Below, piece by piece: positions 8,142 to 17,482 of a stretch of DNA of 37,514 nucleotides (positions are counted from its first letter, which is position 1; each line of letters begins with the position of its first letter). The stretch comes from Synechococcales cyanobacterium bin31.maxbin.ball.101 (GTDB lineage: Bacteria > Cyanobacteriota > Cyanobacteriia > Leptolyngbyales > Leptolyngbyaceae). The stretch lies in contig JAAFJU010000033.1 in NCBI GenBank assembly GCA_013298165.1, forward strand, positions 1-37,514, in the 5' to 3' direction. The notes beneath the pieces were generated by a model, which searched no databases, was not told the origin of the DNA, and saw only the letters and a list, made by a program, of their open reading frames with translations. A program made the position numbers and the translations under genes.

Positions 8142-11100
8142 ATGCGATCGCTTAATTTTGAATTCCTAAAGTCTGACGAACCGCTCCTACACAAACTTGG
8201 CACCGCTGCCGAACGCTATTGTTTTGATGATCCGAATGTGAGCTTGTATAAGCTGCGGCAGTTTGGGGAGATGTTGGCGCAGGTGTTGGCGAAGCGGGCG
8301 CGCTTGGAGGTGCCGACGGACCAGCATGGGGTGTTGCGATCGCTGTCCGATCGGGGGATTATTCGGGGGGATGTCGATCGGCTCTTTCATGAGTTGCGGA
8401 AGACGGGGAATGCGGCGGTTCATAATTTTGGTGGCAGTCAGCGGGTGGCGCTGGAATGTCTGGAGTATGCGTACCTTTTAGCGGGATGGTTTTATCGCGG
8501 GTTTATTATTGCGGAGAAGACGTTTAAGCTGCCACCGTTTGTCCCACCCACCTTTCAAGATCCCGCCACGCCATCACTAGAAACCACAAGACTGAAACAG
8601 GAAGTCGATCGCTTAAACCAAAAGCTAGCCGAAAGCTTGAGCATCGCTGAACTCGCGGAAGCCGATCGAGTCCGTCAGGCACAGCAATTGTTAGATTTGC
8701 AGCAGTCGGCAATGGATGCGGCAACCGAGAAGCAACAGATTGAGCAACGGTTGCGGGAACTGGAAGAACGTGCTCAAGATCTGACGCCGCAGACGTTGCA
8801 GAAGCTGGTGAACCGGGCGGTGGATACGACGATCGACCTGGATGAATCAGCAACGCGACGGCTGATCGATCGGCAATTGCAGGCGGCAGGTTGGCTGGCG
8901 GATTCGCAAGGGTTGACTCATAGCAGTGGCGCACGTCCTCAGAAGAATGTGAATCAGGCGATCGCGGAAGTTCCGATCGGCAATGGTCGCGCGGATTATG
9001 TGTTGTATCTTGGACTGGATGCGGTGGGGGTGATCGAGGCGAAGCGGCGGCGGAAGTCGGTGCAGGAGGGTGGACTGCGGCAGGCGATGCGGTATGCGAA
9101 GGGGTTGAACGTGCCGTTTGTGTTTGCGACGAATGGGAAACCGTTGCAGCAACAGTTGCGATCGCAGTCGGGGATTTGGTTTCAGGATTTGCGATCGCAG
9201 ACGAATGGCAGTCGTCCGATGGGCAGTTGGTTGCAGCCGGATGATCTGAAGGATATGCTGAAGCGCGATCGGGCGGTGGCGGATGCGAAGCTGGGCGAGT
9301 TGGAATTTGCGGGGAGTTTGCAACTGTACGACTATCAGCAGCAGGCAGTGCTAGCAGTGGAAACGGCGATCGCAGATCAACGCCGGGAAATCCTATTGGC
9401 AATGGCAACGGGAACGGGAAAAACTCGCACGGCGATCGCGTTATGTTATCGGTTATTGCAAGCCGATCGGTTTCGGCGGATTTTGTTTTTGGTCGATCGA
9501 TCGATTTTGGGCGATCAGACGGAGTTGTCCTTTGGGGAAGTGAATGTGTCGCCGACGTTGCGGTTTTCGGATGTGTTTGATGTGATGGGGCTGAAAAATA
9601 TTGTGCCTGACATTGATACCCGAGTTCAGATTGCGACGGTGCAAGGATTAGTGAAACGGGTTTTGTATGCGGGCGACAATGGGAAGATTTCACCGGGACA
9701 GTATGATTGTATCATTGTGGATGAATGTCATCGGGGCTATACGATCGATCGGGAGATGAGTGACGCAGAATTGGAATTTCGTGATCTCAATGATTACTTA
9801 TCGAAATACCGACAGGTGTTGGATTATTTCGATGCGGTGAAGATTGGATTGACGGCTACGCCTGCGTTACACACCAGTCAGATCTTTGGTCCACCTGTGT
9901 TTTATTACACGTATAATCAGGCGGTGATGGATGGGAAATTAGTGCCTCATGAGCCTGCGATCGCGATTCATACGAAGTTGTCGGATGAGAATGTGATTTG
10001 GGAAAGGGATGCGGAGATCGAAACCTTGAATCCGCTGACCAATCAAATTGATATTTTGCAGGCTCCGGATGAGATTACCGTGTCGGTGGAGCAGTTTAAT
10101 CGGCGGGTGATGGTGCCGGAGTTTAATCGGGTGGTCTGTGAGGCGTTGTGCGATCGGCTTGATCCGTATGGTCAGGGGAAGACGTTGATTTTTTGTGTGA
10201 CGGATGTTCATGCGGATGAGGTGGTGGGTTTGCTGCGGGAGGGGTTGCGCGATCGGTATGGGGAGATTCATCAAGACTTGGTGGCGAAGATTACGGGGGC
10301 GGCGGATCAGCCGAAGGAATGGACGAAACGGTTTAAGAATGAGCAGTATCCAAAGATTGTGGTGACGGTGGATTTGTTGACGACGGGGGTGGATGTGCCG
10401 AAGATTACGAATTTGGTGTTTTTGCGGCGGGTGAATTCGCGGATTTTGTATGAGCAGATGATCGGGCGGGCGACCCGGCTGTGCAAGGATATTGGGAAGG
10501 AGGCATTCACGATTTATGATGCGGTGGGGGTCTGTCGATCGATGGAAGCCCACACCTCCATGACACCTACGGTCGTCACACCCAAGACCAACTTTCGTGA
10601 ATTGGTTCGTCAAATTACGGACACCGATTTAAGCAATGGTAAAATCAATGCGATCGCCAACGTCTCTCAAGCCGTCGATCAAATCTTGTCGAAACTGCAA
10701 CGCCAACGATCGAATTGGACTCAAGAACGCTTATCAACCTTTGAAACGATTGCAGGTGTGACGATCGATGCTTTGGTGCCATTTGTCCGATCGCAGTCAC
10801 CGACGGAGCTTCAGGCGTGGGTGCGATCGCGTCCGGAGTTAGGGGAGTTTCTTGATCAGCGGGAATCGATGGTGCGAAATCTGTGGATTGCCAACCATGC
10901 GGATGAAGTGCGACGAGTTGAGCGGTTGTATAGTGCGTCAGAAGCGAGGGGTAATTCGGCAGGGGATTATCTGGAGCGGTTTCAGGAGTTCTTACGATCG
11001 CATAACGAACTGATTGCCTTAACCGTTGTCACCCAGCGACCACGGGAGTTAACCCGATCGCATCTGAAGGAAGTTCGGCAGCTTTTGAGTGAGTCGGGTT

Positions 11101-11456
11101 TTAATGAAAAAGCCTTGGAAGTGGCGTGGCGGGAGCAAACCAATCAAGAGATTGCCGCGTCGATTATTGGCTTTATTCGGCAGGCGGCGATCGGGGATGC
11201 GCTGGTGCCTTGGGCGGCGCGGGTCGATCGGGCAATGCGGGATATCTACGCCAGTCAAGCCTGGACAACGCCTCAACGCAAATGGTTAGAACATATTGAG
11301 CGGCAACTGCGAGTGGAGTTGGTGGTCGATCGGTCGGCATTGGATCAGGGGGCGTTTGCGACGATCGGTGGGTTTAAGCAGGGGAATAAGGTTTTTGGGG
11401 GCGAGTTGGAGTCGGTGTTGGAGCGGATTTGCGATCGGTTGTGGGTGGATTGTTGA
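8142..11456 (+). CDS. hsdR: Type I restriction enzyme R subunit (HsdR, EcoEI-like)
   Basis: This 1104-residue motor and nuclease subunit has: a DUF4145-type helical domain (about 20-125, with [17 protein letters not shown]); a coiled coil (about 150-215); the PD-(D/E)xK nuclease ([15 protein letters not shown] and [10 protein letters not shown], near 276-300); a superfamily-2 helicase with Walker [12 protein letters not shown] near 420, DECHRG near 525, GLTATP near 570 and motif [14 protein letters not shown]; and an EcoEI-type C-terminal domain that contacts HsdM. All key residues are present, so it should cut unmodified DNA once it is in complex with HsdM and HsdS. The gene is saturated with HIP1-type sites, so it looks long adapted to the host. 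hsdM starts 46 bases downstream. The ATG has only a weak ribosome site. Confidence 0.95.
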
Positions 11457-11502: not shown

Positions 11503-12918
11503 ATGACGGCTACAACCGATATCGTTCAGAAGCTTTGGAATCTTTGCAATGTGTTGCGGGATGATGGGGTGACGTATCTTCAGTACGTGACAGAGCTGAC
11601 GTATCTGTTGTTTCTCAAGATGATGCAGGAGAACCCAAAACAAGAACTTGAATCGATACCAGAGGGCTATCGCTGGAGCGATCTCGTGAGCCATGGGAAT
11701 GATACTGTTCGGGATTTTTATGTTCAACAACTTCTGCATCTTGGAAAAGCTTCTAAAAGTAAGCATGTTAGACAAGTTTTTGCTAACGCTCAGACTGCTG
11801 TTAAGACACCAACAAATTTACGGAAAATAATTGTTAATATTGACGAGCTGGATTGGTACTCGGCGAAAGCAGAAGGGTTGGGCGATCTGTATGAAGGGTT
11901 GCTGCAAAAGAATGCGAGTGAGAAAAAGTCGGGAGCAGGACAGTATTTTACGCCTCGGGTGTTGATTGATTCGATCGTGCGCGTGATGAATCCAGAGCCG
12001 GGAGAAGTGATCCAAGATCCAGCGGCAGGAACAGGTGGTTTCTTGATTGCAGCGGATCACTTTATTAAATCAAAGACCAGTAACTTATTTGATTTACCTG
12101 AGGAACTTCAAGATTTTCAGAAATTTGAAGCTTTTACTGGTGTCGAGTTGGTGCAGGATGCGCATCGATTGCTGTTGATGAATTTGTTACTCCATGGGAT
12201 TGAGTGTGAGGTGGAGTTGGGGGATTCCTTAGGGAAGGAAGGAAAAGAATTAGGAAAAGCAGATTTGATTTTATCGAATCCGCCATTTGGGACAAAGAAG
12301 GGTGGTGGTTCGCCAAATCGCGATGACTTTACGTTTGAAACATCGAACAAGCAGTTGGCGTTTTTACAACATATTTATCGAGGGCTGAAACCCGGTGGTC
12401 GAGCAGCAGTGGTGTTGCCGGATAATGTGTTGTTTGAGGGGAATATTGGGCAGAAGATTCGGGTGGATCTGATGGAGAAGTGTGATTTGCATACGATCTT
12501 GCGATTGCCGACGGGGATCTTTTATGCGCAGGGGGTGAAGACGAATGTGTTGTTTTTCACGCGGGGGATTTCGGATTATGGCAATACGAAAAATGTGTGG
12601 GTGTATGATTTACGGTCGAATATGCCGCAGTTTGGCAAGCGCACGCAATTGACGCTGGAGCATTTTGCGGAGTTTGAGGCGTCGTGGGAGATTAATGATC
12701 GCGTAGATGGCGGAGAGATGGGGCGGTTGCGCTGTTTTAGCCGATCGGAGATTAGCGATCGGCAAGACAGTTTGGATATTAGTTGGTTGCGCGATGAGAA
12801 CGAGGAGCGCAGTGAGGATTTGCCAGAGCCAGAGGTGTTGGCGCGGGAGGCGGTGAGTGAGTTGACGAGTGCGATCGGGGAGTTAGAGGCGATTTTGGCG
12901 GAGTTGGCGATAGAATAG
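11503..12918 (+). CDS. hsdM: Type I restriction-modification M subunit (adenine-N6 methylase)
   Basis: The 471-residue protein has the HsdM N-terminal helical domain (VQKLWNLCNVLRDDGVTYLQ) and the N6_Mtase domain: YFTPRVLIDSIVRVMNP, motif I DPAAGTGGFLIAADH, and the catalytic NPPFGTKKGGG, followed by VVLPDNVLFEGN. It methylates adenine in the site chosen by HsdS and shields host DNA from HsdR. Order R-M-(inserted genes)-S. The N-terminal third is AT-richer and has fewer HIP1 sites than hsdR or its own C-terminal third. The stop is followed after 24 bases by the mntA-like gene with its own strong Shine-Dalgarno sequence. Confidence 0.95.
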   Translation: MTATTDIVQKLWNLCNVLRDDGVTYLQYVTELTYLLFLKMMQENPKQELESIPEGYRWSDLVSHGNDTVRDFYVQQLLHLGKASKSKHVRQVFANAQTAVKTPTNLRKIIVNIDELDWYSAKAEGLGDLYEGLLQKNASEKKSGAGQYFTPRVLIDSIVRVMNPEPGEVIQDPAAGTGGFLIAADHFIKSKTSNLFDLPEELQDFQKFEAFTGVELVQDAHRLLLMNLLLHGIECEVELGDSLGKEGKELGKADLILSNPPFGTKKGGGSPNRDDFTFETSNKQLAFLQHIYRGLKPGGRAAVVLPDNVLFEGNIGQKIRVDLMEKCDLHTILRLPTGIFYAQGVKTNVLFFTRGISDYGNTKNVWVYDLRSNMPQFGKRTQLTLEHFAEFEASWEINDRVDGGEMGRLRCFSRSEISDRQDSLDISWLRDENEERSEDLPEPEVLAREAVSELTSAIGELEAILAELAIE

Positions 12919-12942: not shown

Positions 12943-13299
12943 ATGGTGACTTCGGTTCTCGATCGTCCAATTGATGAGATTTTGATGGCGCGGTTTGGGG
13001 TCGATCGGGCGGCGATCGTGGCGCTGTGTGAGCGATTTCGGATTGTGGAGATGGGGGTGTTTGGGTCGGCGGTACGGGATGATTTTCGGGAGGGTGGGGA
13101 GGATCCTAGTGATGTGGATCTGTTGGTGGTGTTTGAAGAAGGGTATCAGCGATCGTCTCAAGAGCGTTTGGCTTTACGGGAAGCGGCGGAACAATTATTC
13201 AAACGAAACGTAGATATTTGTCAGAAAGAGTTGATTGATAATCCTTATCGTCGGGCGAAAATTATACGATCGGCACAGGTGATTTATGTTGCCAAGTGA
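12943..13299 (+). CDS. mntA: MntA-type nucleotidyltransferase antitoxin
   Basis: The 118-residue protein has a minimal nucleotidyltransferase fold. GVFGSAVRD starts the motif, SDVDLLVVF gives the two metal-binding aspartates and KRNVDICQK the third. The canonical spacing between GS and DxD is about 10 residues; here it is 14, with an EGGE insertion. In characterised type VII systems MntA AMPylates a tyrosine of HepT to block its RNase. A strong GGAGG lies 7 bases before the ATG. The 3' end overlaps the HepT-like gene by 14 bases, the usual arrangement for coupled expression. It sits between hsdM and hsdS. Confidence 0.87.
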   Translation: MVTSVLDRPIDEILMARFGVDRAAIVALCERFRIVEMGVFGSAVRDDFREGGEDPSDVDLLVVFEEGYQRSSQERLALREAAEQLFKRNVDICQKELIDNPYRRAKIIRSAQVIYVAK

Positions 13300-13636
13300 A
13301 GATGATCTGGAATCTCTATGGGATATGCGGAAGGCAATTCATCGAACTCAGCGGTTTACAGTTGGTCTCTCAGAAATAGAGTATCTTGAGAATGATTTGG
13401 TACAGAGTGCTGTGGAACGTCAGTTAGAGATTTTAGGAGAAGCAACAAGGCGCGTTTCACGGGAATTTCAGTTGGCTCATCCAGAGTTAGATTGGCGTAA
13501 TACGATCGGGCTACGAAATGTGATCGCTCATCAATACGATCGATTACAACAAGATGAGATTTGGCGAATTGTACAGACTATTTTGCCTAATTTTTTGACA
13601 TTGCTAGAGTCTTTGTTACCACCGATCGATGGTTGA
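13286..13636 (+). CDS. hepT: HepT-type HEPN toxin (DUF86)
   Basis: The 116-residue all-helical HEPN protein bears RNVIAHQYD, a clean RX4HXY ribonuclease motif in which the tyrosine is the residue AMPylated by MntA. Upstream helices LVQSAVERQLEILGEATRRVS are also typical of DUF86. It should be an active endoribonuclease, probably acting on tRNA or mRNA when not neutralised. It overlaps the antitoxin gene by 14 bases in another frame and has no separate promoter that I can see. As it lies inside a restriction locus, it may act as a guard or addiction element for that locus; this is inference. Confidence 0.88.
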   Translation: MLPSEDDLESLWDMRKAIHRTQRFTVGLSEIEYLENDLVQSAVERQLEILGEATRRVSREFQLAHPELDWRNTIGLRNVIAHQYDRLQQDEIWRIVQTILPNFLTLLESLLPPIDG

Positions 13637-13672
13637 GATGGGTGATGGGCAGGCGATCGTCCCTGCAACGGC

Positions 13673-13710
13673 GGAACGCCCCCCAGCCCCCAAGTTTGGG
13701 GGAGCATGAG
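13673..13710. repeat. Family-B half repeat downstream of hepT
   Basis: GGAACGCCCCCCAGCCCCC followed by AAGTTTGGGGGAGCATGAG is a single arm of the family-B element; it shares the GGGGGAGCATGAG extension with the copy at 14757. No inverted second arm is found nearby. It lies in the 122-base gap before the DUF2281 gene. Confidence 0.7.
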
Positions 13711-13758
13711 TGGGAATGGGTTAAAATAAAGGGGTCGTCGATCGGGAGCGGACTGATT

Positions 13759-13974
13759 ATGGGCGCAGCCATTTTAGAGAAGCTACAGAGACTTCCAGAG
13801 CCAATGCAGCAGAAGGCTTTGCAATATATTGAGGCGTTGTTGGCAGAGCATCTTCAAGCGGAGGAAGGGTCGATCGTCGTTAATCGTCAAAATGTGTTTG
13901 GAATTTGGAAAGGTCAAGTCCACATGGCTGATGATTTTGATGCGCTGCTAGAGGATTTGAAGGAGTATATGTAA
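13759..13974 (+). CDS. DUF2281-family small protein, probable orphan antitoxin
   Basis: The 71-residue protein starts at ATG 13759 (MGAAILEKLQRLPEPMQQKA); the frame is open further upstream but there it runs through the family-B repeat, so a longer start is unlikely. It has an N-terminal helix with LPEPMQQKALQYIEALL and a C-terminal VFGIWKGQVHMADDFDALLEDLKEYM-like tail, split here by the usual linker. Such proteins are mostly antitoxins encoded directly before PIN-domain VapC toxins in cyanobacteria. Here a toxin does not follow directly: 63 non-coding bases separate it from an unrelated HTH antitoxin. It has probably lost its partner, or might cross-talk with the VapC nearby. Confidence 0.72.
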   Translation: MGAAILEKLQRLPEPMQQKALQYIEALLAEHLQAEEGSIVVNRQNVFGIWKGQVHMADDFDALLEDLKEYM

Positions 13975-14037: not shown

Positions 14038-14328
14038 ATGGCAACCATTTTTACAGAACTACTAACCCTAGAGTCAGCCGCAGGATACCTGCAACTTTCT
14101 CCAGAAACCATTCTCCGTCAAGTCGAGAATGGTCATCTTCCTGCACAAAAACAGGGCGATCACTGGCAATTTCTGCGATCGGATCTCGATACATGGTCCG
14201 ATTGCTACGACCAACGCAAAGTCCTCCTCAAGCAAGCCGGAGCCTTAGCCCATGACGATACGATCGATGAAATGCAGCGACTCATTGATCTGCGTCGTCA
14301 ACAGTCACGTCTAGAGATCACCGACTAA
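14038..14328 (+). CDS. Excisionase-type HTH antitoxin
   Basis: The 96-residue protein has an N-terminal MerR/excisionase-like helix-turn-helix: LTLESAAGYLQLSPETILRQ, then a wing ending in WQFLRSDLDTW. A charged C-terminal helix (IDEMQRLIDLRRQQSRLE) could be the segment that binds the toxin. The stop is 3 bases before the ATG of the PIN-domain gene, so it is the antitoxin and autorepressor of that pair. The binding site would be expected in the 63-base gap upstream, where I see no obvious palindrome apart from the GATCGCGATAG stretch. Confidence 0.82.
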   Translation: MATIFTELLTLESAAGYLQLSPETILRQVENGHLPAQKQGDHWQFLRSDLDTWSDCYDQRKVLLKQAGALAHDDTIDEMQRLIDLRRQQSRLEITD

Positions 14329-14331
14329 CCC

Positions 14332-14751
14332 ATGCATTTGCTAGACACTAACATTTTCACCGCTTTCCACAAAGGCAATCCAAAGATCACTGCTGCACTC
14401 AACGCGCTTGATGAACCCGAAATCGCTACTACGATCGTCAATCAAATCGAACTCATCCAAGGTCGAACGGACTTCCTATTGAAAGCTGAAAACGGCGATC
14501 GGTTGCTCTACGCCCAATCTCTACTGCGAGAGACAGAGTATCTCCTCGCAGAAATCCAAATCATTCCCTTCGATCAATCTGCCGCCGTCTACTTTGACCA
14601 ACTCAAACAACAATCCTCACTCCGCAAATCCGGTAGACCCGATCTGTTAATCGCAAGCATCGCGCTAGCTAACCGCGCCACTCTCGTAACCCGAAATCTT
14701 AAAGACTTTAAAAATGTCCCTAATCTAAAACTTGTCAATTGGCTGGATTGA
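14332..14751 (+). CDS. vapC: VapC-type PIN-domain toxin
   Basis: The 139-residue protein is a PIN-domain ribonuclease. The four acidic positions are intact: Asp in HLLDTNIF, Glu in VNQIELIQG, Asp in GRPDLLIASIA and Asp in TRNLKDFKN. VapC toxins cleave tRNA or rRNA; the target cannot be told from sequence. It forms an operon with the HTH gene ending 3 bases upstream. A family-B repeat begins 5 bases after its stop and fills the space before hsdS, so the cassette end and the repeat coincide. Confidence 0.9.
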   Translation: MHLLDTNIFTAFHKGNPKITAALNALDEPEIATTIVNQIELIQGRTDFLLKAENGDRLLYAQSLLRETEYLLAEIQIIPFDQSAAVYFDQLKQQSSLRKSGRPDLLIASIALANRATLVTRNLKDFKNVPNLKLVNWLD

Positions 14752-14756
14752 GAGAA

Positions 14757-14865
14757 GCTCCCCCAGCCCCCAATTCTGGGGGAGCATGAGTTAGAAACTT
14801 GGTAGCACGGTATGATAGATTCCGGCGGTTCGGTCCCCCCAGAATTGGGGCGGCGGTTCGTCAGA
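14757..14865. repeat. Family-B palindromic repeat between vapC and hsdS
   Basis: The left arm 14757-14780 (GCTCCCCCAGCCCCCAATTC followed by TGGGGGAGC) and the right arm 14835-14865 (CCCCCCAGAATTGGGG, then CGGCGGTTCGTCAG) are inverted copies about 109 bp apart end to end. The right outer end CGGTTCGTCAG matches that of the copy at 27684. It occupies almost the whole vapC-hsdS gap and runs to within 30 bases of the hsdS start. Confidence 0.85.
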
Positions 14866-14892
14866 GTTTTGTGTTTGAGGGAGTGTGCGATC

Positions 14893-16362
14893 GTGCGTGA
14901 GTTACCGGAAGGTTGGGAACAGGTTCAGTTATTGGCGATCACAAATTTAATAACAAAAGGAACAACACCAACCTCAGTTGGTTTTAATTTTGAAAATCAA
15001 GGCACAAGATTTATCAAGATTGAAAACATAAAGGACGGAAGAGTCAATACGGCATCTATTCAGAATTTCATATCTGATGAATGTCATTTAGCTCTCTCTA
15101 GGTCGCAAATCAAGCCAAATGATATACTTTTTTCAATTGCTGGGACGATCGGTAAAACTGCCATCGTAAACGAGACCGATTGCCCTGCAAATACAAATCA
15201 AGCTATATCAATTATTCGTCCTGAATGTGGGTTATTAGAACCTCGATTTTTGAAATATCAACTTGAATCGGAAATCACCTTGGCTATGAGAGATAAGGCA
15301 CGAGGTGGGGCAATGAATAATATATCGCTTGGTGATATTGGAAAACAACCAGTAGTTCTCCCACCCCTCAATGAACAAAAACGAATTGCCGATCGCCTGG
15401 ATCAACTGCTCACGCGCATCGATCGAACCAAAGCGCACCTCGATCGCATTCCCCCGCTCCTCAAACGCTTCCGCCAATCCGTCCTAGCCGCCGCTACCTC
15501 AGGCAGACTCACGGAAGACTGGCGAGAAACCAATATTACTAGCGAAAATGATGATGAGATAGATAAAGTTTTATCCTCAAAAACTCTATCCAACTTTCAT
15601 TTCGAGTTGCCAGAGATCCCAGAAATATGGATATGGAAGACGGCTATTCAATGTTGCGAACAAGTAGTTGATTGTCACAACAAGACCGCACCATATACAG
15701 CTCAAGGCATTAAATTGATTAGAACATCTAATATCCGCAATGGGAAAATAGACCTAGAAAATACTAGATTCATTGACCAGAAAACATATGAATTTTGGTC
15801 AAGAAGATGTCCACCCAAACCAGGAGATTTAATTTTTACACGAGAAGCTCCAATGGCAGAAGTTGGCATGATTCCTGACAATGAAATAATCTGTATGGGA
15901 CAAAGAATGATGCTCCTTCGTTGCGACAATCTTAATTTATTAGGAAATTACTTGCTTATTGTACTTCAAACATCTTATATAGGAGCTTATTCAGACGAGG
16001 TTGCTGTTGGAACTGGAGTGAAACATTTGCGTGTACGAGACGTTGAAAATCTTCCTATTCCTATTCCACCGATCGAAGAACAACAGGAAATCGTCCGCCG
16101 CGTCGAAGCCCTCTTTGCAAAAGCCGATCGTATCGAAGCACAATACCAAAAAGCCCGTCAGCAAGTCGATCGGCTCACCCCCGCCCTCCTCGCCAAAGCC
16201 TTTCGCGGTGAACTCGTCCCACAAGATCCCAAGGATGAACCCGCTAGCGTGCTATTGGAACGGGTGAGGGAAGGGCGATTCTCGTTCCGAGAGGCTTCGC
16301 CAACGGGCGATCGACCTGCAAAGAAAGGGCGTATCAAAAAAGAAAAAATATCTAAGCTATAA
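14893..16362 (+). CDS. hsdS: Type I restriction specificity subunit (HsdS)
   Basis: I choose GTG 14893, giving a start of V/M-RELPEGWEQVQL; GAGGGAG ends 9 bases upstream. The open frame extends to 14812, but that part is translated family-B repeat. The 489-residue protein has two target-recognition domains (about 10-165 and 215-395), each followed by a conserved helical spacer: VVLPPLNEQKRIADRLDQLL and IPIPPIEEQQEIVRRVEALF. HsdS sets the bipartite DNA target and bridges HsdM and HsdR. The recognition domains are AT-rich and nearly free of HIP1 sites, while the spacers are rich in them. This mosaic fits exchange of recognition domains by recombination. The end is a basic tail (KKGRIKKEKISKL). 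Confidence 0.94.
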   Translation: MRELPEGWEQVQLLAITNLITKGTTPTSVGFNFENQGTRFIKIENIKDGRVNTASIQNFISDECHLALSRSQIKPNDILFSIAGTIGKTAIVNETDCPANTNQAISIIRPECGLLEPRFLKYQLESEITLAMRDKARGGAMNNISLGDIGKQPVVLPPLNEQKRIADRLDQLLTRIDRTKAHLDRIPPLLKRFRQSVLAAATSGRLTEDWRETNITSENDDEIDKVLSSKTLSNFHFELPEIPEIWIWKTAIQCCEQVVDCHNKTAPYTAQGIKLIRTSNIRNGKIDLENTRFIDQKTYEFWSRRCPPKPGDLIFTREAPMAEVGMIPDNEIICMGQRMMLLRCDNLNLLGNYLLIVLQTSYIGAYSDEVAVGTGVKHLRVRDVENLPIPIPPIEEQQEIVRRVEALFAKADRIEAQYQKARQQVDRLTPALLAKAFRGELVPQDPKDEPASVLLERVREGRFSFREASPTGDRPAKKGRIKKEKISKL

Positions 16363-16392
16363 TCAAAACTATCGAATCGTCGGTACCTAAAG

Positions 16393-16788
16393 ATGATCCA
16401 AGCCGTCCCAACTCGCATCCCTGAAGCCTCACCACCCCTCAAGACACTTCTAGCCTCAGAGCTGATCGGTCAATATGCGATCACCCTGGATGACGGATAC
16501 ACGGTCTACAATGAACTGTATCCCTTACTGAGCAACGGGTTTAGCGTCACCTTAGACTTTCAAGGTATCACTCATTTCGGCGCACCCTTTCTCAATGCCG
16601 CGATCGGAGGTCTTCTCGCGAGTTTTAGCGTCGATTTTCTCAGAGATAACCTAAAGACCATCAACCTTACATCTGCCGGACAAGGATTATTAGAGCGAGT
16701 CATCATTGACTCCAACGACTATTATTCTAATCCTTTAACCCGAGCAGCCGTCGATCGTGTCCTTCATGAGCAATCGATCGCAGAATAG
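16393..16788 (+). CDS. STAS-like (DUF4325) protein, partner of PIN gene
   Basis: The 131-residue protein has a STAS-like DUF4325 fold: ITLDDGYTVYNELYPLL, then FSVTLDFQGITHFGAPFLNAA with the small-residue turn, and a final helix GQGLLERVIIDSN. Nothing suggests a membrane segment or enzymatic site. STAS-like domains usually mediate nucleotide-sensitive protein contacts. The gene lies 30 bases after hsdS and ends 4 bases before the likely start of a PIN-nuclease gene, so the two form one unit. By analogy with toxin-antitoxin pairs this would be the regulator or antitoxin; that role is inferred from position only. Confidence 0.75.
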   Translation: MIQAVPTRIPEASPPLKTLLASELIGQYAITLDDGYTVYNELYPLLSNGFSVTLDFQGITHFGAPFLNAAIGGLLASFSVDFLRDNLKTINLTSAGQGLLERVIIDSNDYYSNPLTRAAVDRVLHEQSIAE

Positions 16789-16792
16789 ATCC

Positions 16793-17482
16793 ATGGCAAA
16801 CTATCAACCGATCGTCCGAGCTAATGTTGTTGACATTCAAACCGATCGCCCCCAGAAAAGCGATCGGTTTTTAATTGATACCAATGCCTGGTACTGGCTA
16901 ACCTACAGCCGTAGCGAAGACACCTTCCGTCCCGCCAAGACCTACCAAGTTAGACAATACCCCCGCTATATCAATAGGGCACTCAAAGAAATGAGTACGC
17001 TATTTTGGTCAGGATTATCGATGACAGAATTAACAACACTCATCGAACGCAGTGAATATGAAATTTTCTGTCAAATCAATCAGTTAGAACCCCACCTTTT
17101 TACATTGAAGGAGTATCGTCATGGTCATCCTTTAGAACGTGCTAATCAAGTGATTCCAAGAATTAATGTTTCGTGGGATTTTGTTAAGAATATCGGCCAG
17201 TGCCTAGATTCAGTCATCCAGCAAGAGACCGTTACCCAAACAATCGAAGATCTCAAAAATCAAGAAGTAGATGGATATGATGGCTTAATGGTCCATGCCG
17301 CAAAGACTGGAAACATCAGCCAAATTATTACTGATGATATCGACTTTATTACGGTTCCTGGAATCACTGTATTCACAGCTAATTACAACGCGGTATCAAT
17401 TGCAAAATCACAAAATAAACTCATCGATCGTTCCCAATCGGGAAACAGTGGAAAAGCGCTTCAAAGACCACAGCGAAAGTGA
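16793..17482 (+). CDS. PIN-like nuclease domain protein paired with STAS-like protein
   Basis: Starting at ATG 16793, 4 bases after the STAS-like stop, the product is MANYQPIVRAN..., 229 residues; ATG 16766 or GTG 16757 would overlap the upstream gene. A PIN fold is visible with all acidic positions: LIDTNAWYWL near residue 25, LSMTELTTLIE near 78, VDGYDGLMVHAA near 160 and ITDDIDFITVPGITVFTAN near 185. It is larger than VapC, with an inserted region (about 35-65 and 95-140) between the first acidic motifs. It should be a metal-dependent RNase. The basic tail (KALQRPQRK) is unordered. It converges on the winged-helix gene with a 15-base gap. Confidence 0.8.
   Translation: MANYQPIVRANVVDIQTDRPQKSDRFLIDTNAWYWLTYSRSEDTFRPAKTYQVRQYPRYINRALKEMSTLFWSGLSMTELTTLIERSEYEIFCQINQLEPHLFTLKEYRHGHPLERANQVIPRINVSWDFVKNIGQCLDSVIQQETVTQTIEDLKNQEVDGYDGLMVHAAKTGNISQIITDDIDFITVPGITVFTANYNAVSIAKSQNKLIDRSQSGNSGKALQRPQRK

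Follow-up and report, generated by a model that had tools for sequence, protein, structure and literature searches.

VapKSC, the closest described system, was reported by Chambers et al. (EMBO J 2026, June 2026; PMC13373217) with the structure PDB 9Z7O. According to that paper, VapC is toxic and its D28A variant is not; VapS neutralizes VapC in a 2:2 complex, solved as a VapS2-VapC2 crystal structure, and the C-terminal helix of the Escherichia VapS reaches the VapC active site. Neutralization is abolished by the VapS substitution S48E or by deletion of residues 94-116, and protection against phage Bas42 by VapS S48A, VapC D28A, or VapK F54A (PMC13373217). VapK is proposed to phosphorylate one Ser/Thr of VapS and so release VapC, and its activation by ssDNA is likewise a proposal, not demonstrated on VapK itself (PMC13373217). 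The survey in the same paper counted 289 vapKSC loci, reported that another immune gene lay no more than 10 kb away in 103, and called the Ser/Thr phospho-acceptor "absolutely conserved"; because it started from VapK and retained cases with all three genes, pairs lacking the kinase would have been missed. The main text of PMC13373217 does not contain "hsdS", "CHAT", or "lacking VapK", and any linkage of vapKSC to restriction genes may be in its supplement. In our literature searches the name VapKSC occurred in this paper only; the available text of other papers on DUF4325 does not deal with a STAS-like/PIN pairing, and that of PMC13092281, PMC7159879, and PMC10270631 offers side leads only. 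A nuclease tied to a restriction enzyme is also known: prrC lies inside the type IC operon EcoprrI, and PrrC stays latent as part of the enzyme complex (PMC3874165).

The locus described here lies in the window, that is, the whole stretch of 37,514 nucleotides that was analyzed (Table 1). A first-pass annotation had delimited a two-gene STAS-like (DUF4325)/PIN module with a 4-base gap, placed after hsdS in a defense setting, and we confirmed both open reading frames. They close a run of ten same-direction genes with at most 63 bases between neighbors, in the order hsdR, hsdM, MntA-like, HepT-like, VapB-like, HTH, small VapC, hsdS, vapS, and vapC; the next two genes downstream of vapC lie on the opposite strand. 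The ATG of vapC at 16793 follows the 4-base gap after vapS, and an alternative GTG start at 16757 would give a longer frame overlapping vapS. Three further pieces of toxin-antitoxin type, i.e., the MntA-like/HepT-like genes, the VapB-like DUF2281 protein, and the HTH gene with the small VapC, sit between hsdM and hsdS.

Table 1. Coordinates of the features discussed (positions in the window unless a locus is named)
Feature	Position	Strand	Basis or context
hsdR, type I restriction subunit	8142..11456	+	NCBIfam PRK11448.1, 1324 bits; PADLOC
hsdM, type I methyltransferase	11503..12918	+	Pfam N6_Mtase, 2.4e-72; PADLOC
MntA-like/HepT-like genes	12943-13636		
VapB-like DUF2281 protein	13633-13974		
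HTH gene and small VapC	14038-14751		
hsdS, type I specificity subunit	14812..16362	+	Pfam Methylase_S, 1.8e-30; PADLOC
hsdS/vapS junction, 30 bases	16363..16392	+	relatives of the same order have vapK between hsdS and vapS
vapS, STAS-like antitoxin (DUF4325), 131 aa	16393..16788	+	Pfam, family profile, AlphaFold2
vapC, PIN-domain nuclease, 229 aa; D29, E79, D163, D182 kept	16793..17482	+	family profile, conserved positions, fold
VapS-fused domain, ~130 aa	L029 2344-2736; L064 3094-3486; L065 9158-9631; L068 9249-9631		
VapS and truncated VapC, BREX locus	L132 5529-10754	-	directly after brxL and pglZ
IetS-like gene	L018 10831-13308	-	beside vapSC locus
Fic-domain gene	L010 10737-11780		beside vapKSC locus
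Gene without Pfam match	L077 8700-9389		adjoins vapS
Gene without Pfam match	L134 10861-11679	-	adjoins vapS
Second VapS-like gene	L065 10802-11158		just 3' of vapC

The vapS product matched DUF4325, its sole Pfam domain, with an E value of 1.5e-13, over the curated cutoff, and a vapS-family profile searched against PDB sequences retrieved the Escherichia VapS of 9Z7O (E 8.5e-38). The comparison with 9Z7O was made by sequence because this entry is absent from the structure matches listed (library to April 2026). The AlphaFold2 model of VapS had a pLDDT of 89.6; Foldseek returned nothing from the PDB at E<=0.001, and a second look with VIA-align placed STAS chains on top with middling Z scores of 7.2 and lower, among them RsbV 6m36_F (Z 7.1, 84 aligned, 3.5 A) and SpoIIAA 1thn_B (Z 6.3, 88 aligned, 3.5 A). 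A C-terminal helix was seen both in the alignment and in the model (residues 114-130), where confidence is lower toward the end (block pLDDT 80, 74, and 55); alignment and model suggest that it is the counterpart of the helix required for inhibition in Escherichia, with a predicted similar role here. PADLOC gave no match for vapS or vapC of the window.

The window PIN protein alone fell under the Pfam cutoff (E 0.0015, 19.6 bits versus 23.6), which two of its homologues (L010 and L069, both of two tested) pass, and the vapC-family profile retrieved the 9Z7O VapC from PDB sequences with an E value of 1.6e-70. VapC/PIN chains headed the structural matches of its AlphaFold2 model (pLDDT 94.9), the best being 5x3t_B (VIA-align Z 12.4, 127 residues, 2.6 A). 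As the first-pass annotation had held, all four acidic catalytic positions are kept: D29, E79, and D163 are conserved in 95/95 VapC homologues, and D182, together with D184, in 94/95, with one gap. By our own count on the profile alignment, D29 aligns with D28 of the Escherichia VapC. The same annotation was right that the protein is larger than VapC and carries inserts, with 229 residues versus 139 in the window's own small VapC and with E79 and D163 spaced 84 positions apart by a helical insert whose residues K106 and R109 are found in 94/95 and 95/95 homologues, respectively. Of the two modes of control it had suggested in place of a DNA-binding antitoxin, protein contact agrees, by homology, with the published VapS2-VapC2 crystal structure, and nothing was found in support of a ligand. 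Its statement that no characterized system has this pairing was superseded by VapKSC (PMC13373217), and the profile matches to both VapS and VapC of 9Z7O rule out a categorically new pairing.

We then considered how widely the pair occurs. The PIN family was present in 7/97 genomes of the window's relatives and in 24/386 genomes from its phylum, its own genome included each time, and a scan of one genome per species over 84,980 species yielded 153 related stretches in many phyla, of which the best 80 of 153 were used as relatives. When two PIN queries were run by tblastn on the plasmid and phage collections, nothing matched; IMG/VR contained four related loci. Most loci consist of three consecutive genes: the first encodes VapK, which is STAS-like at its front and has a GHKL-type ATPase part, the second a DUF4325 protein, and the third a PIN protein. 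The two-gene module of the first-pass annotation is real as a pair, but a module normally comprises three genes, and it is the kinase and the phospho-acceptor Ser that are gone in the window. We counted 98 distinct loci in which VapC spans 150 or more of the 207 profile positions: VapS is the immediate upstream neighbor in 96 of them, and in the remaining two VapC starts at a contig edge; the adjacency, which that annotation had proposed to look for across genomes, is far above chance.

To compare kinase and acceptor states across the family, we used a tree of 95 rows with duplicate VapC rows removed (L003, whose VapC is that of L053 and which has vapK and the Ser, was left out); it is of the "quick" type with SH-aLRT support only. 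Kinase calls were made for 92/95 rows, the upstream sequence of L013, L051, and L108 being too short, and Ser states of L091, L114, and L115 were read from a fresh alignment. VapK was called absent when missing or less than 80% covered (26/92 rows), so "absent or broken" takes in fragments (L017, L020, L033, L071, L107, and others) that are possibly assembly errors; 16 rows have no VapK-matching frame at all, and three of these (L018, L039, and L056) show vapK remnants in tblastn or genome searches. Intact VapK with the Ser/Thr was scored in 66/92 loci, absent or broken VapK with the Ser/Thr kept in 20, absent VapK with the Ser lost in 6, and intact VapK with the Ser lost in none. The residue is Ala in the window and L077 and Pro in L029, L065, L068, and L093. 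Loss of the Ser in 6/26 loci without intact vapK versus 0/66 with it gives a Fisher p of 3.2e-4, uncorrected for kinship; only 2 to 4 pairs remained informative after correction for kinship, and they all pointed the expected way without reaching significance (median p 0.5, best 0.125). On the tree the VapK state changed 21 times and the Ser state 5 times. When the genomes of the six Ser-lost loci were searched, five gave no VapK match at E<=1e-5, and the L065 genome gave just a partial one (8.6e-7), inside a 1061-residue frame. With VapS accompanying full-length VapC in 96/98 loci and intact VapK present in 66/92, VapS looks obligatory and VapK dispensable; such counts would be expected if the antitoxin is obligate and the trigger dispensable.

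In the window, vapK was not found and hsdS occupies its place. No VapK match at E<=1e-5 was obtained in the window genome, with all 20 candidates scored; as this is a draft of 356 contigs, 96% complete, a vapK could be hidden in a gap. By our own count on the profile alignment, Ala64 of the window VapS aligns with the phospho-acceptor Ser48 of the Escherichia VapS, and in the model it is the first residue of helix 64-70 (APFLNAA), which contains no Ser or Thr. Family sequences alone also point to the Ser of the FASPFFN motif as the probable phospho-acceptor of a partner switch. With vapK not found and Ala64 in this position, the window VapS should not be switchable by the phosphorylation route.

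Altogether, homology, gene order, the lack of a detectable vapK, the Ser-to-Ala state, and the intact catalytic positions make it probable that the window pair descends from VapKSC as a toxin-antitoxin unit that has escaped phosphorylation control and has been retained within a type I restriction operon. The proposal for the parent system is that VapK, once activated by ssDNA, phosphorylates a VapS Ser/Thr buried in the VapC interface and leaves VapC free to cut RNA. By homology with the Escherichia proteins, the window VapS would bind and neutralize a toxic VapC, with its C-terminal helix at the VapC active site, and the putative trigger would be loss, degradation, or failed resupply of VapS, or another partner, as the only ways to free VapC. 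Turnover or loss of VapS would be the simplest remaining release route and would stabilize the restriction operon, since in such a classical addiction module losing that operon may become costly.

A broader reading, rather improbable though worth setting out, is that VapS-VapC forms a portable cartridge of brake and nuclease whose phospho-trigger was repeatedly discarded in exchange for others: for a CHAT protease that acts via a CHAT-linked domain fused to VapS (L029, L064, L065, and L068), for abutting genes (L077 and L093), and in the window for the type I restriction complex, as a PIN-based counterpart of PrrC. In the four cyanobacterial loci of the first group, a TPR-CHAT gene (CHAT E values of 1.3e-46 to 5.3e-40) precedes vapS in the place of vapK, VapS carries an N-terminal extension of ~128 to 158 residues, and the Ser is lost in 3/4, L064 keeping it. 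The extension family matched in 10/386 genomes of the window's phylum (E<=1e-6); in L151, L153, L161, and L162 the extension domain is a small protein after a same-strand CHAT gene, and a fifth locus, L152, shows no such gene in the 3.4 kb covered. These arrangements suggest protease control in place of phosphorylation, presumably by cleavage, and the ~130 aa VapS-fused domain is a candidate CHAT partner or substrate domain. A same-strand gene lies within ~100 bases upstream of vapS in 6/6 Ser-lost loci, 3/20 Ser-kept rows without intact VapK (L020, L038, and L064), and 25/66 modules with VapK, a comparison made after the data were seen and with distances taken from the fragment where a vapK fragment is present. 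Genes without Pfam match adjoin two kinase-less, Ser-lost vapS genes that carry N-terminal extensions of their own (L077 and L134), and these neighbors are possible replacement triggers. L065 also has a second VapS-like gene, with CTAPFW at the phosphosite motif.

It is rather unlikely that the pair is a decaying VapKSC remnant, in which vapK was deleted, VapS is drifting, and the pair serves no present purpose except that VapS has to be there as long as VapC is active. The branch of the window row is long (1.15 in the tree), so relaxed selection or decay is conceivable; vapK fragments at several loci and 13 partial VapC frames in nine loci, some maybe cut by locus or contig ends, point the same way. 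Against this, both window frames are intact with all catalytic positions kept, and the D-E-D-D set is present in 26/26 rows without intact VapK. The kinase-less L046/L050, the sole close pair with both genomes lacking VapK, is under purifying selection (dN/dS 0.11 for vapS and 0.18 for vapC); together with the values of 0.23-0.30 that the VapS part shows in the CHAT-linked pairs, this argues that kinase-less pairs are maintained. A search for a close relative of the window pair suitable for dN/dS found none.

The association with restriction genes extends beyond the window, and the defense setting after hsdS was well chosen by the first-pass annotation: the order hsdR-hsdM-hsdS-vapK-vapS-vapC recurs in other loci. 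Of 66 loci with at least 5 kb of upstream sequence, 21, from eight phyla, have a same-strand hsdM no more than 6 kb upstream; downstream, hsdM was found in 1/76 on the same strand and in 2/76 on the other strand. Because the sequences used to seed the hsdM profile came from the window, L018, and L056, a match in these three is built in; leaving them out gives 18/63 upstream and 1/74 and 2/74 downstream on the same and other strand. After clustering at 80% identity, with later-fetched loci each counted as their own cluster, 17/50 clusters have the upstream hsdM; by group, it was found in 6/40 cyanobacterial loci, 15/24 other bacterial loci, and 0/2 viral contigs. In ten loci vapK and a specificity subunit come within 3 bases of each other; nine of these were identified with our own profile (L010, L021, L022, L045, L048, L049, L061, L062, and L078) and the tenth, L031, through Pfam Methylase_S. 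About 18 residues of vapK are left between hsdS and vapS in L056 (Chlorobiota), and a search of that genome found no vapK; here, independently of the window, vapSC without the kinase again comes after hsdS, with the Ser kept. Other defense-type neighbors were observed as well: brxL and pglZ of a BREX locus directly ahead of VapS and a truncated VapC, an IetS-like gene beside a vapSC locus, and a Fic-domain gene beside a vapKSC locus.

This linkage, with the 30-base hsdS-vapS junction in the window and the precedent of prrC latent in the EcoprrI complex (PMC3874165), would suit a PrrC-like guard, in which the HsdM-HsdS complex, or its loss or inhibition, directly controls VapS-VapC and a phage that blocks restriction unleashes the nuclease. 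We regard such a guard as improbable: nothing in our data points to contact of VapS or VapC with Hsd subunits, VapK is the proposed sensor in the parent family, and among the 26 rows without intact VapK only three (the window, L018, and L056) have a same-strand hsdM in the 6 kb upstream. Far less credible still is a phospho-switch that persists through another kinase in trans or another residue, which the intact vapK elsewhere in the genomes of L058 and L017, whose loci are kinase-less or kinase-broken, shows can occur as trans control and which the Ser/Thr kept in 20/26 rows without intact VapK would favor, but which finds in the window genome no VapK match and in VapS helix 64-70 no residue to phosphorylate.

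The addiction-type unit that we favor thus combines a known pairing, VapS with VapC, with a state that is new, i.e., a kinase-less pair with Ala64. Also new are the linkage to an upstream hsdM, with the window keeping the hsd order without vapK, and the TPR-CHAT gene in the place of vapK in four other cyanobacterial loci. At position 64 the window VapS matches the S48A variant, with which phage protection is abolished in the laboratory system (PMC13373217), and this suggests that the VapS brake can persist without the published release mechanism. In several phyla, the recurrent hsdRMS-vapKSC order links a restriction system with a growth-arrest nuclease.

Compared with other known systems, the window pair resembles PrrC/EcoprrI in that a nuclease gene is linked to hsd genes, a likeness of gene linkage and not of compared sequences, and differs in that nothing here points to Hsd control of VapSC. 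With the SpoIIAA/SpoIIAB and RsbV/RsbW partner switches it shares the STAS fold of VapS, at middling Z scores; unlike in these, the partner is a nuclease and not a sigma-factor circuit, and the kinase and phosphosite are missing. VapBC type II toxin-antitoxins likewise couple a PIN toxin to a protein antitoxin, and VapC chains top the structural matches of the window VapC, whereas the window antitoxin is STAS-like and not VapB, and its VapC is larger, with the helical insert between E79 and D163. CapK and CapS include a STAS-type protein and share the GHKL-kinase switch with the parent lineage, and nearly 20% of capKS sit downstream of a restriction-modification operon (PMC13373217); CapS, however, represses by binding DNA and has a C-terminal wHTH (PMC13373217), and the window VapS has DUF4325 only. 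In VapKSC itself, VapS and VapC are homologous to those of the window and arranged alike, with the same catalytic positions and the VapS C-terminal helix, while in the window vapS directly follows hsdS. Two defining features of VapKSC were examined in this regard, and since no vapK was found and the phospho-acceptor Ser is Ala64, we do not file the window pair as VapKSC; it is a derivative of the VapKSC family.
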